NCBI GenBank assembly: GCA_021777535.1
Contig: JAJYDN010000005.1
Coordinates: 1-64,000 of the forward strand
Source of the DNA: Pseudomonadota bacterium
GTDB taxonomy: Bacteria > Pseudomonadota > Gammaproteobacteria > Acidiferrobacterales > Acidiferrobacteraceae
DNA: 64,000 bases
Direction of reading: 5' to 3'
A program made the translations under genes and the position numbers. Below are positions 20,117 to 48,870 of the stretch, piece after piece. The notes under the pieces were generated by a model, which did no database searches, was not told where the DNA came from, and saw nothing but the letters and a program-made list of their open reading frames with translations. Every line of letters begins with the position of its first letter. The first letter of the stretch is position 1.

Positions 20117-21347
20117 GATGGATGTAGCGGATATAGGCGTCGTCCCGCAGGGTCTGCAGCCAGCGCACATACAAGGCACTGCCCTTGCGCATGCGCAGCA
20201 GGCGTTCGGCCGTCGCGCGGGTGAGCCCGTGGCGCAGCCGCCGGTCGAGCACGCGGATTATCATCTGGCCCTGACCCATGGCGTAGGGGCCACCCAGCTT
20301 GCCAACCGGCAGGGATTGGGCGGCCTGCTCGAGGGCGGGCGGCAGCGACGTCACCGTCAGCCAATCGGTCTTCCCTCCCTCCATGGCGGAAGCCGCCTCG
20401 GAATACGCGCGCGCGACGACCGAGAACTTTTCTCCGCGCTCAATGCGTGCCTTCAGGTGCTTTAGCTTCTCGGGCAGGATACTGGCCGGTGCCGCCGCAC
20501 TCGGCTGCAGGAGGATCTCCTGCAGGCGTACCTGCAACGTCGCAGGCTGGGGCTTGCCCTTCTTCCTGTTGTCGAGCTTCAGGAGATAGACCGCATCGTG
20601 TCCCGCGAGCACGCGGACTTCGCCGACCCGCATCCCGGTCAAGGCGTGCACGAAGATCGGCCGCAGATGGTCGGCGGCCCGCCAGCCCAGTTGTCCGCCT
20701 TCCAGGGCATGCTGATCATCGGAGTGCGCGATGGCGGCCTGGCCGAATGACTCGCCGGCGGCGATGTGCGCCGCGATCTGGCGGCCGCGGGCGAGGATAC
20801 GCGCGCGCTCGGCCTGCCCCGCGGTCCCCGGCACGCTGAGCGTGATCTCGGACACCTTGTAGCGGCTGCCGGCCGCCGCCCGCTCCTCCGCCATGAAGCG
20901 CTCCACACTGGTCTTGGATACCGTCACACCGCGGCTGATGCGGCGCTCTATCAGGTCACGGATGATGAGTTCGCGCTCAAGACGCCGGTGAAACGCATGC
21001 GGCGTGAACCCCTCGGTCGCGAGGGCGTGCTCGAACTGCGCGACCGACATGTGATTGCGGTGGGCAAGCGTCGCCTCGGCGGCCGCTACTTCGGCTGCGG
21101 TGACGCGGATGCCGATGCGCTTGGCGTACTGGAGTTCCAGGCGCTCCATGATCATCTGGTTCAAGACCCGGCGCCGCAAAAGCCGCTCGGGCGGCGGCGC
21201 CATGTTCTGGGCGGAGAGGCGCTCGGCCAGCAATTTCACGCGCCGGTCGAGGTGCGTTTGCGTGATGATGCCGTTGTTGACTATGGCCACGATCTTGTCG
21301 ATGGTCACAGGCTGAACACTGATGAACGGCGGAAGCGCGGATGACAT
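20109..21347 (-). CDS. surA: SurA-like periplasmic peptidyl-prolyl isomerase, no clear signal peptide
   Basis: This 412-residue protein matches SurA, the chaperone for outer-membrane proteins. It has the N-terminal domain (VTIDKIVAIVNNGIITQTHLDRR), then two parvulin domains at about residues 165-270 and 280-380, the first with LGWRAADHLRPIF and the second with KTDWLTV. The odd point is the start. Only 13 residues (MSSALPPFISVQP) precede the mature domain, with no hydrophobic core, and the frame is closed upstream by the lptD region. A GGAGAG ribosome site sits just before this ATG. Position after lptD is canonical. Confidence 0.88.
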   Translation of the reverse strand: MSSALPPFISVQPVTIDKIVAIVNNGIITQTHLDRRVKLLAERLSAQNMAPPPERLLRRRVLNQMIMERLELQYAKRIGIRVTAAEVAAAEATLAHRNHMSVAQFEHALATEGFTPHAFHRRLERELIIRDLIERRISRGVTVSKTSVERFMAEERAAAGSRYKVSEITLSVPGTAGQAERARILARGRQIAAHIAAGESFGQAAIAHSDDQHALEGGQLGWRAADHLRPIFVHALTGMRVGEVRVLAGHDAVYLLKLDNRKKGKPQPATLQVRLQEILLQPSAAAPASILPEKLKHLKARIERGEKFSVVARAYSEAASAMEGGKTDWLTVTSLPPALEQAAQSLPVGKLGGPYAMGQGQMIIRVLDRRLRHGLTRATAERLLRMRKGSALYVRWLQTLRDDAYIRYIHHD

Positions 21348-21356
21348 CTTCTCTCC

Positions 21357-23513
21357 TCAAGAGCCCAACATGAACCCGTGCTGGCTGAGCGGCGCGATCG
21401 GTATCGTGCCGAGGCTGCCCAGCCCATTCAGGGTGAATGCGAGCATGGCGGTTGTAAGTTGCGTATTGTTCAGCCCGAGGCGCTGACCGACATAAAAGCT
21501 GACGCCCCAGCAGCAGGTATTGTATTGGATGCCGAGATAGGATTCCAAACTCGCTGATTGCATGAGTGAATAACTGGTTTCGGCGAGCCCGGACCAGTGG
21601 CCGAACAGGGGCCACTGGACGCTGAAGTCGACCTGCTCCTGCACGCCCCGCACGAAACGGTGGCCTACCGTGATGATCTTGTTCGGCGCCGGGTGATACT
21701 CGACATACGCCTCGCCCTCATCCGTGTAATGGGTGACCGGATTCCAGTCGAGCGTGCCGCGCGTATACCAGTGGCGCGCAAGCCGCGCATAGAGCTCGGC
21801 GGCGATGTCGGATGTGCGGTCCAGTATCTGGGTGGCGGGCGGCAGATAGATCGACGGCGGGTGAAAATAGTGGACGACACCGGCACTCGCACGGAAACGC
21901 TCGCGCCCGCTTGCGGAATAGATGCGCGTGGTCAGCGCGGCCGTCAGCTGGTTTGCATCGATGATCCGGTCGGGCCCGAAAAAGGCGTTGGTCCGGAATA
22001 GATTGTCGTAGTTGAAATCGGCCGGCGCCGTATCGAACACGGGAATATTCTGCTGGTTCCGGTACGGGATGTAGAGATAGTAGAGTTCGGGCTCGAGGGT
22101 TTGGTGGCCGCCATTGGCGAGACTGCGGTCGAGATACAGTCCGCCTTTCAGGCTCGTCGTCGGCGTCGTCCGGTGGATGCTCCGAGACGAGCCCAGCCAG
22201 TAATCGGTTTCCCGCTCGCCGAAACTCGGCGTAAGAAAGCCCGCGGGCCAGCGCAGGGGGTAGCTTATGGCCGCATGCGTATCCACACGGTCGGCCGGCG
22301 GACCACCGCCTGCTATGAAGCGGATGACGCTCGCGGCCGCCCGGTAATGGATACGGTTTGGCGCCGAATTGCCGCGTACGGTGACGCGCGCGCCCGGCAG
22401 TTCTTCGTAGGGCTGATAGCCTGACGCGATCGCCGTGTCGAGCAACTCATAGGTGGAACCGAACACCCGCAGGCGCACGCGGCGGCCCGAATAGCCAGTC
22501 TCGGCCAGCTGGGGCAGGTCGATCTGGCTCGCAAGCGTGAGCGAGGTGCTGAAATCGGTATAGAAAGCCGGATCCGAGGTCCGGTTGTAGTTGATCTTTG
22601 CCCACCAGTAGGGATTGAAAGTCTGCTGGTGAATGAGGCTGAAGGCATAGCGGGATTTGCCGTAGATCCGGTCGAACGGGATATAGTCGAGATGGACAGA
22701 CCCGCTATAGCTGGCGCCGAGATAACGGAAACGGTTGCGCAGCAGGATGCCGCGCCGTGTCAGGATCTGCGGCGTCGTGATGAGATCGTAATTGGGTGCG
22801 ATATTCCAGTAATAGGGAATGGAGACCGAGACCCCCGAATTCCCGAGAACGCCGTAGCGCGGCGGCAGGAATCCCGACTTGCGCTTGTTGGAGATCGGGA
22901 AGCTGAGGTAGGGCCAGTAAAAGATGGGCACCCCCTTGAAGACGACAAGCGCATTGGTTGCCACACCCGAATCCGCCCGGTAGTCGAGGTGCAACGTCCC
23001 GGCGCTGATATACCAGACCTTGGTACCCTCCGGGCACATGGTATAACGCGTGCGGTGCAACAGTGCGTGATGCCGGCCACGGAGAATGACGATGACGGAA
23101 TTGCCGCGGGCGTTGCTTCCCGGCAGCTGAAAATGCACATCGCGTGCGACGCCGTGGCCGGTGGTCCGGTTCAGGTGGAGATAGTGCGCCCGCAGCTGTC
23201 CCCCTTTGGCATTGGTCACATGGACGTGGCCCAGGGCCGTAAAGGTATTGGTCAGGCGGTTGAAGCGGACCGTGTCGGCCCGTATGGTCTCGGTGCCGTA
23301 GACCAGCACGACGTGGCCGCTGAAAATACTGATGCCGTCGCGCCAGGCGCGTGCCTTGTCGGCGACGACATGCACGGCGCGGTGCCGCGTGCTCGGGCCC
23401 ATGAACGTAACGGGATGGGGGGTGACGGGCGTGCACGCCCCGTAAGCGGAGACAGCAGCCAGGGATGAGATCAACAACCCCGCCCATGAGCGCGCGGCAA
23501 CGGTCCGGGGCAT
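21357..23513 (-). CDS. lptD: LPS-assembly protein LptD
   Basis: This 718-residue outer-membrane protein inserts LPS in the outer leaflet with LptE. A signal peptide (MPRTVAARSWAGLLISSLAA) is followed by an OstA/LptA-like periplasmic domain (about 40-170) and a large beta-barrel rich in alternating aromatic strands. The disulfide cysteines seem conserved: one near the mature N-terminus (GACTPV), one in MCPEGTKVW and the vicinal pair in YNTCCWGVSF. The start at 23513 is chosen for its signal peptide; 20 codons further upstream are open. The surA gene follows after nine bases. Confidence 0.93.
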   Translation of the reverse strand: MPRTVAARSWAGLLISSLAAVSAYGACTPVTPHPVTFMGPSTRHRAVHVVADKARAWRDGISIFSGHVVLVYGTETIRADTVRFNRLTNTFTALGHVHVTNAKGGQLRAHYLHLNRTTGHGVARDVHFQLPGSNARGNSVIVILRGRHHALLHRTRYTMCPEGTKVWYISAGTLHLDYRADSGVATNALVVFKGVPIFYWPYLSFPISNKRKSGFLPPRYGVLGNSGVSVSIPYYWNIAPNYDLITTPQILTRRGILLRNRFRYLGASYSGSVHLDYIPFDRIYGKSRYAFSLIHQQTFNPYWWAKINYNRTSDPAFYTDFSTSLTLASQIDLPQLAETGYSGRRVRLRVFGSTYELLDTAIASGYQPYEELPGARVTVRGNSAPNRIHYRAAASVIRFIAGGGPPADRVDTHAAISYPLRWPAGFLTPSFGERETDYWLGSSRSIHRTTPTTSLKGGLYLDRSLANGGHQTLEPELYYLYIPYRNQQNIPVFDTAPADFNYDNLFRTNAFFGPDRIIDANQLTAALTTRIYSASGRERFRASAGVVHYFHPPSIYLPPATQILDRTSDIAAELYARLARHWYTRGTLDWNPVTHYTDEGEAYVEYHPAPNKIITVGHRFVRGVQEQVDFSVQWPLFGHWSGLAETSYSLMQSASLESYLGIQYNTCCWGVSFYVGQRLGLNNTQLTTAMLAFTLNGLGSLGTIPIAPLSQHGFMLGS

Positions 23514-25715: not shown

Positions 25716-25967
25716 CTACCGCTTGGCTGCCGTCCTGCGCTTTGGCGCAGTCTTCCTCACTGCCTTCTTGGCAACGCTCTTCACCGTTGCCTTCTTGGTC
25801 GCCACCTTCTTCTTGGTCGCCACCTTCTTGACCGCGACCTTCTTGACGGCAGTCTTTCTCACCGCCTTCTTGGCAACGCTCTTCACCGTTGCCTTCTTGA
25901 CTGCAGCCTTGGTCGACACCGCGCGCGCTTTCTTCTTCGTGGTCGTCGCCTTCTTCTTTATTGCCAT
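25716..25967 (-). CDS. Histone H1-like lysine/alanine-rich DNA-binding protein
   Basis: This 83-residue protein is almost wholly Lys, Ala, Val, Thr and Arg. It starts MAIKKKATTTKKKARAV and repeats KKATVKSVAKKAVRKTA at residues 24-40 and 58-74. Such proteins (AlgP/Hc1-like, resembling eukaryotic H1 tails) bind DNA without sequence specificity and compact the nucleoid. The ATG at 25967 is preceded by GAGGAGTGAGAG; a longer frame upstream is non-repetitive and ignored. It converges on the murU operon. A similar tail is fused to adenylate kinase elsewhere in this window. Confidence 0.85.
   Translation of the reverse strand: MAIKKKATTTKKKARAVSTKAAVKKATVKSVAKKAVRKTAVKKVAVKKVATKKKVATKKATVKSVAKKAVRKTAPKRRTAAKR
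25762..25899 (-). repeat. Direct repeat inside the H1-like gene
   Basis: A 36-base sequence at 25762-25797 recurs exactly at 25864-25899, 102 bases apart and in frame, with further near-identity on the left side of each copy. It encodes the duplicated KKATVKSVAKKAVRKTA protein repeat and shows that the gene grew by internal duplication. Confidence 0.85.
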
Positions 25968-40333: not shown

Positions 40334-42379
40334 TTAGTGGACGAGAGTGACGATCAAGAGCGCCACGATATTGATGATCTTGATCAGCGGATTGACGGCC
40401 GGTCCGGCCGTGTCCTTGTACGGGTCGCCGACGGTGTCACCGGTGACCGCCGCCTTGTGGGCATCCGAACCCTTGCCACCAAAGTGGTTGTCTTCGATGT
40501 ACTTCTTGGCGTTATCCCAGGCACCACCGCCCGTTGTCATCGAGATCGCCACGAAGATACCGGTCACGATGCTGCCCATCAGCACACCGCCCAGGGCCTG
40601 CGCGCCGAGGAACACGCCGACCACGACCGGCACCAGCACCGGCAGCAGCGACGGCACCACCATCTCGCGGATCGCGGCCTTGGTCAGCATGTCGACCGCG
40701 CGCGAGTAGTCGGGCTTGGCCGTGCCTTCCATGATGCCGGCGATCTCCTTGAACTGGCGCCGCACCTCGACGACCACTGAACCGGCCGCGCGACCCACCG
40801 CCTCCATGGCCATGGCGCCAAAGAGGTAGGGAACGAGACCGCCCAGGAAGAGGCCGATGATGACCATGTGGTTGGACAGGTCGAACGTCAGCCCCTGATG
40901 CCCGCTCTGCTTGAGCTTGTCGGTGAAGTCCGCAAACAACACCAGCGCCGCGAGTCCCGCCGAACCAATGGCGTAGCCCTTGGTAACCGCCTTCGTGGTG
41001 TTGCCGACCGCATCCAGCGGATCGGTGACCGCCCGGACGCTCGCCGGAAGGTCTGCCATCTCGGCGATACCGCCGGCGTTGTCCGTGATGGGGCCGTAGG
41101 CGTCCAGCGCGACGATCATCCCCGCAAGCGACAGCATCGCCGTCGCCGCGATGGCGATTCCGTACAGGCCGGCAAAATAATAGCTGAGCGCGATGCCAAG
41201 GCAGATCGCCAGCACCGGAGCCGCGGTGGCCTTCATGGATACCGCAAGACCGGCGATGACGTTGGTGCCATGGCCCGTCGTCGACGCCTGCGCGATGGAG
41301 CGCACGGGCGCAAACTCGGTGGCCGTGTAGTATTCGGTGATGACGACCAGAAGCCCGGTGACGAGGAGACCGGTCAGCGCCGAATAATAGAGGTCCATCA
41401 TCGTGTAGTGGTGGCCATTGATGGCGACCTGACTCAGGCCGGCCATCATGTAGTGCGTGACCGGATAGAAGAGGGCAGCCGCGAGGACACCCGCCACGAT
41501 GAGGCCGCGGTAGAGCGCGCTCATGATGCGCTGGCCCGGCTTTACCCGGACGAACTGCGCACCGACGATGGTCGCGATGATCGACGCCGCACCCAGCATC
41601 AGGGGATACAGAAGAGCGTGATGCATGCCCTGATAATCCATGTGGCCAAGCACCATGCTCGCGACCACCGTCACCGCATAGGTCTCGAACAGGTCGGCCG
41701 CCATGCCGGCGCAGTCACCGACGTTGTCACCGACGTTGTCGGCGATGACCGCCGGATTACGCGGATCATCCTCGGGAATGCCTGCCTCGACCTTGCCGAC
41801 CAGGTCCGCACCGACATCGGCGCCCTTGGTGAAGATACCGCCCCCAAGCCGCGCGAAAATCGAGATGAGCGACCCGCCGAATGCCAGCCCCACGAGGGGT
41901 GCCACATGCACCGGCTGACCTGCCGGAGTCATATGGACCAGGATCGTGTAATAGCCGGCAATACCGAGGAGGCCAAGACCCACCACCAGAAGACCCGTGA
42001 TCGCGCCGCCGCGGAACGCCACCCGCAGTGCCTGGGTCAACCCCTCACTGGCCGCCTGCGTGGTGCGGACGTTGGCCCGTACCGACACGTTCATGCCGAT
42101 GTAGCCGGCTGCCGCCGACAGGATGGCGCCGGTCAGGAAACCGAACGCCGTGGTTGCGCCGATGAAATAGTAGAGCAGGGCAAACACCACCACACCGACC
42201 ATGCCGATGGTGCTGTACTGGCGGTTCAGATAGGCAGATGCGCCCACCTGAACCGCCTTGGCAATCTCCATCATGCGCGGAGACCCCGTGGACTGCTTCA
42301 GAACCCACCCTATCGACACGGCACCATAGACAAGCGCCGCTGCCGCACAGGCAAAAATAATGACCAGACTATCAGACAT
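40334..42379 (-). CDS. hppA: K+-insensitive membrane H+-translocating pyrophosphatase
   Basis: This 681-residue membrane enzyme pumps protons by hydrolysing pyrophosphate. About 15-16 hydrophobic helices are visible. The catalytic acidic motif is [19 protein letters not shown], with [18 protein letters not shown] before it. The motif [10 protein letters not shown] has Lys where K+-dependent enzymes have Ala, so this is the K+-independent class. It follows pfp and a small gene in one run. Together they conserve energy from pyrophosphate, and the pump may run in either direction. Confidence 0.96.
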
Positions 42380-42423
42380 ACCTTTCCTCCCTATCGCTAA
42401 ATATCGGTCGCCCCAACACCCGG

Positions 42424-42636
42424 CTAATCTTTCAGTGCTACTCCCCCTTCAAAGCGCGTGCCCGGCTCGAACCCAAAAACACGATCCAGGCCCGTCTCAC
42501 GGATCAGCGCGTCCACTGCCGCCTGCCCGTGCTCCCGAAAGACTTCGGACAGGATGAGCTTCGCGGCGTTACCGTTGTAAAAGCCGCCGAAGCCAGCCTG
42601 GACCAAAAGGAGCTCACGCGCCTTGTCGATAGTCAT
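42424..42636 (-). CDS. Unknown 70-residue protein between pfp and hppA
   Basis: This small protein ([15 protein letters not shown], then [17 protein letters not shown], ending FEGGVALKD) is not assigned to a family. It looks soluble and helical: a first helix to about residue 13, a Gly-rich turn with [11 protein letters not shown], and a second amphipathic helix. Its ATG is two bases after the pfp stop and hppA begins 44 bases later, so it is co-transcribed with both. Its place suggests a regulator or subunit linked to pyrophosphate metabolism; this is inference from location only. Confidence 0.75.
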
Positions 42637-42638
42637 CC

Positions 42639-43904
42639 CTAGACCTTGAAAGTGCCGCCCAGCTTCTTTTTGACCGCCGCGTTCTTCAGGGTGACATATT
42701 GCGGCAGGCCATTCTTGTAGGGCGGATAATCCTCGCCCTGGATGAGCGGCTCGAGATAGGTACGGCACTTCTTGGTGATACCGAACCCGTCGGCCGTGAT
42801 GTAATCGGCGGGCATTTTCTTCTCGACATTGGCCACATCCGCCAGATCCGCCTCGCCGACCGTCCATTTATAGGGCTTGTTCGACTGCCGGACGATGACC
42901 GGCATGACGGCGTTGCGGCCCTTCAGGGCCAGCTCCACGGCCTTCTTGCCGAGCGCATAGGCCTGTTCGACATCGGTCTTCGAGGCGATATGGCGCGCGG
43001 CCCGCTGCAGATAATCGGCAACGGCCCAATGATACTTGTAACCCAGCTTGTCCTTGATGAGCTGCGCAATCACCGGCGCCACACCACCCAGCTGGGCATG
43101 ACCAAAGGCGTCTTTCGTGCCGCTTTCGGCCAGGAAGCGCCCTGCCTTGTCACGCACACCCTCGGACACCACGATGGCGCAGTAGCCTTGGGCCTTGACG
43201 GTCTTGCCGACCTTGGCCAGAAAGGCTTCCTCGTCGAATTCACGCTCCGGGAACAGGATCACGTGCGGCGCATCCCCGGCCTTTTCCGCCGCAAGCCCCG
43301 CTGCCGCCGCGATCCATCCGGCGTGACGGCCCATGACCTCCATGACGAAGATCTTGGTCGAGGTCTTGGCCATGCTTGCCACGTCGAAGGCGGCTTCCCG
43401 GATCGAAACGGCCACATATTTGGCAACCGATCCGAAGCCCGGCGAACAGTCCGTGATGGGCAGATCGTTGTCGACGGTCTTTGGCACGCCCACGCAGATG
43501 ACCGGGTACCCGAGCCGCTCGCCGATCTGGGATACCTTATAGGCGGTATCCTGCGAATCACCACCCCCGTTGTAGAAGAAGTAGCCGATGTTGTGCGCCT
43601 TGAAAACCTCGATCAACCGCTCGTATTGGGCCCTGTTTTCCTCTAGGCCCTTCAGCTTGTAACGGCATGACCCGAAGGCACCGGCAGGCGTATGGCGCAA
43701 GGCCCGAATGGCCGCTGCCGACTCCTTGCTGGTGTCGATCAAGTCTTCCGTCAGCGCGCCAATGATGCCGTTGCGCCCCGCGTAGACCTTGCCGATCTTG
43801 GTTTTGTGCTTGCGCGCGGTCTCGATGACACCGCATGCCGACGCATTGATGACGGCTGTCACACCGCCAGACTGGGCGTAAAACGCATTTTTCGGTCTTG
43901 CCAT
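42639..43904 (-). CDS. pfp: Pyrophosphate-dependent 6-phosphofructokinase
   Basis: This 421-residue enzyme phosphorylates fructose-6-phosphate reversibly with pyrophosphate. Both diagnostic positions are of the pyrophosphate type: Asp in NGGGDSQDTA (ATP enzymes have Gly there) and Lys in PKTVDNDLPITD (ATP enzymes have Gly). MEVMGRHAGWIA and the C-terminal QRAARHIASKTD are also conserved. The ATG at 43904 has GAGATAGG eight bases before it; a GTG three codons upstream is the alternative. Pairing with an H+-pyrophosphatase gene is known from methanotrophs. Confidence 0.94.
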   Translation of the reverse strand: MARPKNAFYAQSGGVTAVINASACGVIETARKHKTKIGKVYAGRNGIIGALTEDLIDTSKESAAAIRALRHTPAGAFGSCRYKLKGLEENRAQYERLIEVFKAHNIGYFFYNGGGDSQDTAYKVSQIGERLGYPVICVGVPKTVDNDLPITDCSPGFGSVAKYVAVSIREAAFDVASMAKTSTKIFVMEVMGRHAGWIAAAAGLAAEKAGDAPHVILFPEREFDEEAFLAKVGKTVKAQGYCAIVVSEGVRDKAGRFLAESGTKDAFGHAQLGGVAPVIAQLIKDKLGYKYHWAVADYLQRAARHIASKTDVEQAYALGKKAVELALKGRNAVMPVIVRQSNKPYKWTVGEADLADVANVEKKMPADYITADGFGITKKCRTYLEPLIQGEDYPPYKNGLPQYVTLKNAAVKKKLGGTFKV

Positions 43905-43953
43905 GTGTTGCACCTATCTCAGTAAAAGAAAAACCTGCCGGCACCGCCCCGCC

Positions 43954-44316
43954 CTACCGCCGGGGCGGCACTTCGGCCGACAATCCACGCTGCCGCTCGT
44001 GATCGGCCTGCAGCTGCAATACGTGCGTCACGCACTCCCCGAGGTCGTCATAGACATCACGGCCCGTCCCGTACTGTTCATTGGGGGAGTAGAAGAACTG
44101 GCATTTGTAGCGGCTTTCGCCGACCTTGAATATGACGAAACTGGTGCCGCGCTCAGTCCAGAATAGCGTCGGGCAGAAGGTGAGAGTGGTGGATTCGGGG
44201 TCGAGGCGCAGTTCGCTGTCAGCTAACTCGATGGATACCGATTTGCCGTAACGTTCCTGTACGGTCGTGCGCGCCACCCAGAGTTCGGTGTCGGTAAAGT
44301 CCTGTATAGGTTTCAT
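43954..44316 (-). CDS. Conserved-looking hypothetical protein
   Basis: This 120-residue soluble protein is not recognised. It has charged beta-like stretches (TTLTFCPTLFWTERGTSF, ESRYKCQFFYSP) and three cysteines, with no signal peptide or membrane helix. It lies 50 bases upstream of pfp on the same strand and may share its transcript. An inverted repeat sits just upstream of its start. Codon use and frame length favour a real gene. Confidence 0.6.
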   Translation of the reverse strand: MKPIQDFTDTELWVARTTVQERYGKSVSIELADSELRLDPESTTLTFCPTLFWTERGTSFVIFKVGESRYKCQFFYSPNEQYGTGRDVYDDLGECVTHVLQLQADHERQRGLSAEVPPRR

Positions 44317-44332
44317 CAGGTCACATCAATTT

Positions 44333-44357
44333 TTGGTATCGCCTCATAACGATACAA
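44333..44357. repeat. Inverted repeat TTGGTATCG-N8-CGATACAA
   Basis: The arms TTGGTATCG and CGATACAA pair over eight bases with one unmatched G, 16 bases upstream of the reverse-strand hypothetical gene. This is the size and position of an operator for a dimeric repressor; no matching regulator is known here. Confidence 0.4.
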
Positions 44358-44660
44358 CTAGGTTAACCGTAAAAGCCCGTTCTTGTATATGCGCCGGAAG
44401 CGGCAGCGCCACTTTTTTTCACGGGCGGCGCGCGCTTGGCATCGGTGCGTCATGGAGCGAGTCCAAAAGCTGCGCCCGCACGAAGCGCGGCGCAGCCGCC
44501 GCCACCGGGAGGTCGCGCGGACTCGTTTTAAGGGTGCACAGACCCTGCGGCGCCGAGGACGCGGGGTCGTCTTGCCTGCCCCGTGGCGCCATGGATCGTC
44601 CGGGCGACCGCATCACACCGGCATCGTGAACAGAAAAATGCGTCGACTGCCAATAAAATA

Positions 44661-44689
44661 TTGACGCGAAAAAAATAGGAAGGTAGCTT
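44661..44689 (+). promoter_or_regulatory. Possible sigma-70 promoter of adk
   Basis: TTGACG (44661-44666) and TAGCTT (44684-44689) are 17 bases apart in an AT-rich stretch about 70 bases before the adk start. A second -10-like TATAAC lies further downstream. Confidence 0.4.
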
Positions 44690-44762
44690 AGGCACGGGAC
44701 CGCCCTCGGGCACAATATAACGAATCTCTAATAGGTCACTAAGCACCTAAAGCGAGCACACC

Positions 44763-45851
44763 ATGCGAATCGTGTTATTGGGAGCGCCTGGATCTGGAAA
44801 AGGGACCCAGGCGAAATTGTTGGTTGAGAAGTACAAGATCCCGCAGATCTCCACCGGCGATCTGCTGCGGGCAGCGGTCAGCGCGGGCACGGAACTCGGG
44901 CGCCGCGCAAAGGCCGCCATGGACGCGGGCCAGCTGGTGTCAGACGACATCGTGCTGGGCATGATCCAGGACCGGTTAAGCCAGCCCGACGCCAAAAACG
45001 GCTTTATCCTGGATGGGTTTCCGCGCAGCAACCCCCAGGCCCAGGCACTGGATTCCCTGCTGGCACGTCTCGGCCAGCCGCTGCAGCTCGCCCTGCTCGT
45101 CGATGTCGATTCCTCGGAACTGATGAAGCGCCTCACGGGCCGCCGTACTTGCGAAAAATGCGGTCAGATGTACAACGTCTACTTCTCGCCACCCAAGGTG
45201 AGCGGCGTGTGCGACAAGTGCGGCGGCAAACTCATGCAGCGCTCGGACGACAATGAGGAGACCATCGGCAAGCGCCTGAAGGTCTACGAAGAGCAGACGG
45301 CGCCGCTCATCAGCTACTACCGCATGCAGAACAAGCTGCGGAAGGTGGCGGGCGTCGGCAGCATGCAGGATATTTTCCGCTCGATCACCAACCTGATCGA
45401 ACAGCACATCCATCCCCTGTCGGCCCTGAAGCCGGCCGCCACACCGCCTGCACCATCGGCCAGCAAGCCCCGGCTCGTGGCGCAGAACAAGGCGGCGCCG
45501 CAGCCGGCAGCCGGGTTGGCCACGGGCGGACGCGTAGCCCTGGCAACCAGCGCGGGCGAAGCCGCCAAGAAGGCAGCGGCAAAGAAGAAGGCAGCGGCAA
45601 AGAAGAAGGCGGCCCCCAAGAAGGCTGCGGCAAAGAAGGCGGCCCCCAAGAAGAAGGCTGCCGTAAAGAAGAAGGCGGCGCCGAAAGCCGCCGCGAAGAA
45701 GAAAGTGGCCGCCAAAAAGAAGGCCGCACCGAAGGCTGTCGTGAAGAAGAAAGTCGCCGTAAAGAAAAAGACGGTTGCCAAGAAGAAAGGCACCGCCAAA
45801 AAGGCCGCGACAAAGAAAGCGATCCGCAAGGGCGCGCGCAGCCGTCGTTAG
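44763..45851 (+). CDS. adk: Adenylate kinase fused to a histone H1-like C-terminal tail
   Basis: Residues 1-214 are a complete adenylate kinase (ATP + AMP to 2 ADP). The P-loop GAPGSGKGTQ is at 7-16, ISTGDLLR binds AMP, and FILDGFPRS follows. The LID carries four cysteines (130, 133, 150, 153) that can bind zinc. A Pro/Ala-rich linker (about 222-262) leads to a 100-residue tail built almost only of Lys, Ala, Val and Pro (AAKKKAAPKKAAAKK type), ending GARSRR. The frame runs on without a stop to a proper terminator, so the fusion seems genuine. Normal Adk has about 215 residues. The tail resembles nucleoid H1-like proteins and should bind DNA or RNA. Confidence 0.93.
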   Translation: MRIVLLGAPGSGKGTQAKLLVEKYKIPQISTGDLLRAAVSAGTELGRRAKAAMDAGQLVSDDIVLGMIQDRLSQPDAKNGFILDGFPRSNPQAQALDSLLARLGQPLQLALLVDVDSSELMKRLTGRRTCEKCGQMYNVYFSPPKVSGVCDKCGGKLMQRSDDNEETIGKRLKVYEEQTAPLISYYRMQNKLRKVAGVGSMQDIFRSITNLIEQHIHPLSALKPAATPPAPSASKPRLVAQNKAAPQPAAGLATGGRVALATSAGEAAKKAAAKKKAAAKKKAAPKKAAAKKAAPKKKAAVKKKAAPKAAAKKKVAAKKKAAPKAVVKKKVAVKKKTVAKKKGTAKKAATKKAIRKGARSRR

Positions 45852-45857
45852 CCGGAA

Positions 45858-45892
45858 GGACGCCACCCTCGGGTGGCGTCCTCTTCTTTTTT
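45858..45892 (+). terminator. Rho-independent terminator of adk
   Basis: GGACGCCACCC and GGGTGGCGTCC form an 11-base-pair stem with a two-base loop, followed by TCTTCTTTTTTG. It starts seven bases after the adk stop, which confirms that the long tail is the real gene end. Confidence 0.93.
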
Positions 45893-47336
<1,444 letters not shown>

Positions 47337-47344
47337 GGGAATAC

Positions 47345-48082
47345 TTACAAAGGCTTGGAGTCGACGGCTGCCCGGCCGAGGATCTCCGTCTCGATCTGCT
47401 CGAGACTCGTGTGGCGAACGTCTTTGCCCTTGACCAGATAAATCACGTATTCACAGATATTGCGGGCATGGTCGCCGATACGCTCCAGCGCGCGCATTGC
47501 CCAGATGACGTTCAGGACCCGCGAGATCGTGCGCGGATCTTCCATCATGAAGGTGATCATCTGGCGCATCAGACCGTCATACTGCTTGTCCACCCGCCGG
47601 TCCTCGCGCGCAACCCGCACGGCGGCCTCCATATCGAGGCGGGCGAAGGCATCCAGGGCGTCGTGCACCATCTGGCGGACGTGGTCGCCGAGCGACTGCA
47701 CTTCGACATAGCCATCCTTGGGACGTTCTTCAACGGCAAGCCGCACCGCCATCCGGCCGATCTTCTCCGCCTCGTCGCCTATGCGCTCGAGGTCGGTAAT
47801 GGTCTTGATGACCGCCATGACGAGGCGCAGGTCGCTCGCCGTCGGCTGGCGCCGGGCGATGATCTGGTTGCATTCCTCGTCGATGGTGACATCCATCTTG
47901 TTGACCTTGATGTCGTTCTTGATGACCTCGTCACCGAGGACGGCGTCGCCTTTGACGAGCGCTGTCATGGCGTCGACGATCTGCTGTTCCACGAGGCCGC
48001 CCATATGGAGCACGCGGGTACGGATATCCTCGAGCTCGGCATTGTAGCGCCGTGAAATGTGTGGGCTAACGTGCAGCTCCAT
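47345..48082 (-). CDS. phoU: Phosphate transport system regulator PhoU
   Basis: This 245-residue all-helical protein has the two PhoU repeats, each a three-helix bundle with acidic metal-cluster residues (segments [15 protein letters not shown] and [16 protein letters not shown]). It dampens PhoR signalling by contacting PhoR and PstB. It lies 17 bases after pstB on the same strand. The usual pst-phoU linkage is kept, but the other pst genes are missing nearby. Confidence 0.96.
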
Positions 48083-48099
48083 CTGTCCTCCTCACTCCC

Positions 48100-48870
48100 T
48101 CAGCCGTAACGGCCGGTGATGTAATCTTCCGTCTGCTTCATGCTCGGATTTGTGAAAATCTTGTTCGTGTCGCCAAACTCGACGACGCGGCCCAAGTACA
48201 TGAATGCAGTATAGTCGGAAACACGTGCAGCCTGTTGCATGTTGTGCGTGACGATTACGATCGTGTAATTCTGTTTTAGTTCATAAATGAGCTCTTCGAT
48301 CTTCAGTGTCGAGATCGGGTCGAGTGCGGAGGCGGGTTCATCGAGAAGGAGGACTTCCGGTTTCAGGGCGACGGCCCGCGCCATGCACAGACGCTGCTGC
48401 TGGCCGCCGGACAGGCTCATTCCGCTTTGGTGCAGCTTGCCGCTCACCTCGTCCCAGAGCGCCACCTGCCGCAGCGCCTCCTCGACGCGGTCGTCGAGTT
48501 CCGCCTTGGGCATGCGCTCATAGAGACGGATCCCGAAGGCCACGTTCTCGTGGATCGACATCGGGAACGGCGTCGGCTTCTGGAAGACCATGCCGATACG
48601 TGACCGCAGGCGGTAGAGATCCTCGCCCGGCAGCAGCACGTTGCGATCATCAAGCCACACCTCGCCTTCCGCGCGCTGATCCGGATAGAGTTCGTACATG
48701 CGGTTGAACGTGCGCAGCAAGGTGGACTTGCCGCAGCCTGACGGGCCAATGAAGGCCGTCACCATGCTGGTCGCGACGTCCAGGCTGATGTCATGCAGCG
48801 CGGCTTCCTTGCCGTAGTAGAAATGCAAATTGCGAACCTTGATCTTGATGCCGTTCTGCGCAGAGTCCAT
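48100..48870 (-). CDS. pstB: Phosphate ABC transporter ATP-binding protein PstB
   Basis: This 256-residue ATPase powers high-affinity phosphate import. Walker [15 protein letters not shown], the signature [14 protein letters not shown] and Walker [13 protein letters not shown] are intact. [16 protein letters not shown] at the N-terminus is typical of PstB. The ATG at 48870 is chosen; a longer frame upstream adds 40 unrelated residues. It is followed by phoU. The permease genes pstC and pstA and the binding protein pstS are absent from the window. Confidence 0.96.

Follow-up and report, generated by a model that had tools for sequence, protein, structure and literature searches.

An adenylate kinase gene (adk) in the 64,000-nucleotide stretch of gammaproteobacterial DNA that we analysed (hereafter the window) encodes a complete enzyme domain followed in frame by a long C-terminal tail rich in lysine and alanine. 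Tails of this kind are a real, widespread and apparently undescribed feature of adenylate kinase (Adk). The enzyme, which balances AMP, ADP and ATP, is essential; the usual view of it is that of a soluble housekeeping enzyme, and it serves as a model of enzyme dynamics. On balance we think it probable that the disordered, lysine-specific tail is a polycationic tether that docks a functional Adk on a polyanion inside the cell, with nucleic acid as the likeliest one.

The adenylate kinase gene and its tail

The adk open reading frame (44763-45851, + strand) runs from ATG to stop, encodes 362 amino acids, and is present as given in the preliminary description of this DNA. Residues 1-214 (44763..45404, +) had been read there as a complete Adk with a zinc-type LID, and profile searches agree: this region scores 307 bits against the full-length bacterial Adk model NF001380 (cut-off 251) and 256 against TIGR01351 (cut-off 168), and it matches PF00406 and PF05191. 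The P-loop lysine and five substrate arginines are all there (K13, R36, R88, R123, R160 and R171), and the set of four LID zinc cysteines is complete (C130, C133, C150 and C153). Judging from this intact active site, the window protein is presumably a functional adenylate kinase. It has domain 1-214, with all the catalytic and zinc residues, in common with zinc-LID bacterial Adks (NF001380; PDB 5g3y and 1zin), but the solved structures nearest to the window domain (for example 5g3y) stop near residue 217 and are tail-less. The source genome (2.30 Mb, 99.6% complete) has no Adk match other than the tailed gene, a closed relative (G007) likewise has one Adk match, and within the window's family we found the tailed gene only, with no second Adk.

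The tail comprises residues 215-362 (148 aa). A Pro/Ala-rich linker of about 50 aa (45405..45556, +), starting HIHPLSALKPA, leads into a Lys/Ala repeat of 96–97 residues (45557..45848, +) that is of the KKAAAKKKAAPKK type and ends RKGARSRR, in line with the earlier reading of a Pro/Ala linker running in frame into a repeat of about 100 residues. The tail contains 43 lysines, 6 arginines and a single acidic residue; its charge is calculated as about +48 (+43 for the repeat part), and its DNA contains tandem repeats of 18, 33, 48 and 66 bp. In the AF2 model, pLDDT drops from 70 to below 50 in the linker and is about 45 in the tail, which has no modelled structure, compared to values above 90 in the domain (91–97); the tail is predicted to be disordered. 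The TAG stop codon (45849..45851, +) is followed by an intrinsic-terminator-like element (45856..45888, +) consisting of a GC-rich hairpin of −22.3 kcal/mol and then the T-rich run TCTTCTTTTTTG, as expected from the earlier statement that a terminator lies right after the stop. A search for structured RNA near adk gave no Rfam match in 42000-48500.

The window also contains an H1-like Lys/Ala protein (25716-25967, − strand), which we used for comparison only. Its resemblance to the tail had led to the suggestion that an ancestral gene fusion is plausible. This protein is a real ORF of 83 aa from its ATG; however, repeat growth inside the adk gene accounts for the tail's tandem-repeat DNA as well as fusion with the H1-like protein does. 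On the tree of Adk domains described below, the tail is older than the order Acidiferrobacterales. A genome-wide habit of making Lys/Ala sequences is rejected as the source of the tail, because 9 of the 13 KK[AV][AV]xKK sites in the genome are within the Adk tail; three others are in the H1-like ORF. A phmmer search with the tail against its own genome matched only the tail itself and is uninformative about the tail's relatives. The remaining KK[AV][AV]xKK site of the genome is in an ArsR-like regulator that bears a short K/A tail (G000:C61, about 20919-21365; L201:919-1365, − strand).

Tailed adenylate kinases are widespread in Gammaproteobacteria

A survey of adk in relatives had been proposed as a check on the tail. 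The source genome groups with Acidiferrobacteraceae, the closest named hits being records of Acidiferrobacteraceae and Sulfuricaulis, from which we take its order to be Acidiferrobacterales. We read the adk locus in 30 other genomes of the order Acidiferrobacterales, and all 30 have a K/A tail on Adk, with lengths of 80–177 aa (two of the tails contain masked stretches). Both genomes from the same genus share the architecture of the window gene, and a linker start of IHPL or I/MRPL is common to Adk tails across the order. A class-wide gammaproteobacterial sample of 60 loci yielded 49 with a K-rich tail (89–317 aa), from 31 further families; the remaining 11 are tailless, a number that is not a rate because it includes loci picked for looking short. 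The tail is present in nearly all of the top 80 named loci; a few are cut by contig ends, and only two (L137 and L172) clearly lack it. Thiohalophilus thiocyanatoxydans DSM 16326 (L128) and Thiohalobacter thiocyanaticus Hrh1 (L136) are examples of named isolates with the tail.

Chance, misassembly and frameshift can be ruled out, because the same architecture is found in the two same-genus genomes and at every other same-order locus read, and also in closed genomes and named isolates. The tail is therefore a natural fusion to Adk, as the preliminary description had proposed, and its conservation extends from same-genus and same-order loci to further gammaproteobacterial ones. The accompanying claim that such a tail is absent from common Adks was wrong, given its presence in all 30 order relatives and in 31 other families. 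We found no description of a tail of this type on Adk in the open PMC papers searched.

The tailed-Adk architecture is already in databases, at least as PRK13808 (NF010381), a 335-aa model that resembles the window protein in having an Adk followed by a Lys/Ala tail. However, the Adk of PRK13808 has a short LID with no zinc module, whereas the window protein has a zinc-type LID. The window protein scores 212.6 bits against this model, below its cut-off of 426, and none of six order genomes passes the cut-off, which is exceeded in only one Bradyrhizobium-like genus. The loci in that genus (L241-L245) code for a short-LID Adk whose own K/A tail ends in KKVTKKRAKR; this suggests that the Bradyrhizobium-like protein likely had a separate origin and is a case of convergence. 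Core metabolic enzymes can thus bear grafted H1-like tails, with this genus as a second, apparently separate case.

Evolution of the tail

We mapped the presence of the tail onto a tree of 130 Adk domains (97 tailed and 33 tailless), a quick tree with many weak branches. Only 4 changes are needed, compared to a mean of 29.3 when the tail labels were shuffled, and none of 500 shuffles gave a number as low. Because so few changes are required, the pattern looks like one old gain of the tail, which would then have been kept. The tree also fits loss of the tail in one group (L191-L193), and a separate origin for the tail of L069, which is unlike the others.

We counted differences in 18 disjoint pairs of relatives, in which 24.5% of amino acids differ in the tail but 4% in the domain, at about equal silent difference. 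Summed over the pairs, lysine faces lysine at 833 aligned tail positions and the codons differ silently at 226 of these, versus 50 changes from K to R and 10 from K to E, whereas non-Lys residues change freely; an earlier codon count over all pairs agrees. The ratio K/(K+R) is 0.91 in tails but 0.41 in domains. Most acidic residues lie in the linker third; outside it they make up 1% of the tail. Since lysine is conserved through silent change, is preferred to arginine, and is accompanied by few acidic residues, the tail is kept as a lysine polycation: selection acts on positive charge in the form of lysine and leaves the sequence otherwise free.

Similarity to other H1-like tails

The C-terminal domains of the Pseudomonas proteins AlgP and PhaF are H1-like, consisting of a long disordered Lys/Ala/Pro repeat. 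They provide a precedent for tethering to DNA and to granules, and fragments of the AlgP KPAA tail bind DNA (PMC9239181). The window tail is like them in its predicted disorder and in being rich in Lys and Ala, as seen from its pLDDT and composition. It differs in that the AlgP/PhaF unit KPAA is repeated in tandem but occurs only once in the Adk tail, and in that AlgP and PhaF are granule-associated proteins and not enzymes, whereas the carrier here is Adk. The histone H1-like family HC2 (PF07382) gives a weak composition match to residues 240-361, at 15.4 bits against a cut-off of 40, so the tail does not belong to this family.

A candidate polycationic tether

A disordered tether that works by electrostatics would be expected to be just such a lysine polycation with free sequence. 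Through electrostatic contacts the tail would keep Adk attached to a polyanion inside the cell, for which nucleic acid (nucleoid DNA or RNA) is the likeliest candidate, much as H1, AlgP and PhaF use their Lys/Ala/Pro tails, and exchange among AMP, ADP and ATP would thereby be kept at the docking site. We infer binding of a polyanion by the tail, with nucleic acid as the main ligand because it is the polyanion that all these bacteria share, and a benefit that lies in localisation and not in catalytic tuning. Docking to DNA, RNA or ribosomes had been suggested before for a tail thought to be unique; the uniqueness is gone, but a conserved tail under selection for positive charge is consistent with polyanion docking.

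Some observations weigh against a tether. Tail length ranges from 81 to 317 aa across the tailed set and the sequence is also highly variable, which does not point to any specific docking site. Many tailed genomes, including the closed genome G023, have a second, E. coli-like Adk that is about 50–55% identical to the query, and those that were read are tailless; because some relatives keep this ordinary second Adk besides the tailed one, the housekeeping role of Adk does not depend on the tail. The tail has apparently been lost in some clades (L191/L192), and the linkage to pyrophosphate (PPi) genes described below might indicate a metabolic partner instead of nucleic acid.

If a widespread, selected H1-like tail on Adk does act in this way, nucleotide exchange would be placed at a charged polymer in many bacteria. 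A wider possibility, about which we are doubtful, is that Adk is bound to nucleic acid across a large part of Gammaproteobacteria, residing at the nucleoid or ribosome by means of an old H1-like tail, perhaps with a pyrophosphate-based energy module, and so couples the state of chromatin or RNA to the AMP/ADP/ATP balance. The tail can be cleanly removed at about residue 215, which makes its role directly testable.

Gene neighborhood and other explanations for the tail

The divergent neighbor of adk is a gene for PPi-dependent phosphofructokinase (PPi-PFK; 42639..43913, − strand; NF010675, 667.7 bits, cut-off 273). A conserved 120-aa ORF with no Pfam or NCBIfam match lies between the two (43954..44316, −), and a membrane H+/Na+-translocating pyrophosphatase gene lies beyond them (40334..42379, −; PF03030, 889 bits). 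PPi-PFK adjoins adk at 57 of 74 tailed loci but only 3 of 22 tailless ones, and H+-pyrophosphatase is within 10 kb at 54 of 74 and 2 of 22, respectively; the difference is much smaller for the control neighbor hemB (40/74 versus 7/22). The 120-aa ORF is present next to adk at 41 of 75 tailed loci and at none of the tailless ones. However, these counts contain only 2–3 independent contrasts and a sign test is not significant, so the linkage of the tail to PPi genes may reflect shared descent.

This neighborhood would fit a PPi/AMP metabolon, in which the tail would assemble Adk with PPi enzymes or attach it via acidic lipids to the membrane next to the H+-pyrophosphatase. We regard this as unlikely, in view of the few contrasts, the 17 of 74 tailed loci where PPi-PFK does not adjoin adk while it does so at 3 tailless loci, and the tail itself, in which no amphipathic or membrane segment is predicted.

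Targeting of Adk to polyphosphate (polyP) or its granules, which would link AMP phosphorylation to polyP/PPi chemistry, is a distinctly unlikely general role. The adk locus of the source genome is a PPi-metabolism cluster beside phoU/pstB/phoR, and this genome has both polyphosphate kinases, PPK1 and PPK2. AlgP, which has a similar tail, is located on polyP granules (PMC9239181), and in E. coli polyP is bound by lysine-rich disordered regions (PMC12345225). The Adk tail is not a PASK motif, defined as at least 75% D/E/S/K in 20 residues (PMC12345225), because it reaches at most 55% and has one acidic residue. Among 70 tailed genomes that are at least 90% complete, PPK1 is missing from 26, and both PPK1 and PPK2 are missing from 21, including the closed genomes G023 and G170. 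We therefore reject polyP as a universal ligand of the tail. The earlier suggestion of polyP binding is weakened to this extent, but polyP may be one ligand in the source genome, where both kinases exist.

It is quite improbable that the tail is instead a second function, an H1-like DNA-compacting domain carried on Adk and perhaps released by cleavage or internal initiation. Its composition is that of H1-like proteins, and four loci of family f64 and its relatives (L067, L081, L175 and L179) have an in-frame ATG preceded by AAGGAG(G) exactly at the start of the tail. But the window gene has no internal start, and an H1-like protein is separately encoded in the source genome. Internal starts are also rejected as a property of the tails in general, because ATGs preceded by a Shine-Dalgarno sequence number 5 over all tails compared to 3.3 in synonymous-codon shuffles, which is no excess. 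The tails of L067, L081, L175 and L179 start MTAKKK or MAVKKK, and each could be a separately translated H1-like protein; the site in L177 is weaker.

A near-neutral origin by slippage of a GC-rich repeat would account for the tandem repeats and for the length differences between relatives, but is very improbable given the strong constraint on lysine amid free silent change, the exclusion of acidic residues outside the linker, and the keeping of the tail in many families after what looks like one old gain. We also consider it highly unlikely that the tail tunes the stability, solubility or oligomerisation of Adk in acid habitats: the window organism's family is rich in acidophiles, but Thiohalophilus and Thiohalobacter, which are not acidophiles, have the tail too. 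Elsewhere in the window, positions 300-1845 contain a CRISPR-like array with the 37-bp repeat GTATCGCCCGGGGTAAAACTCGGGCGCGGATTGAAAC.
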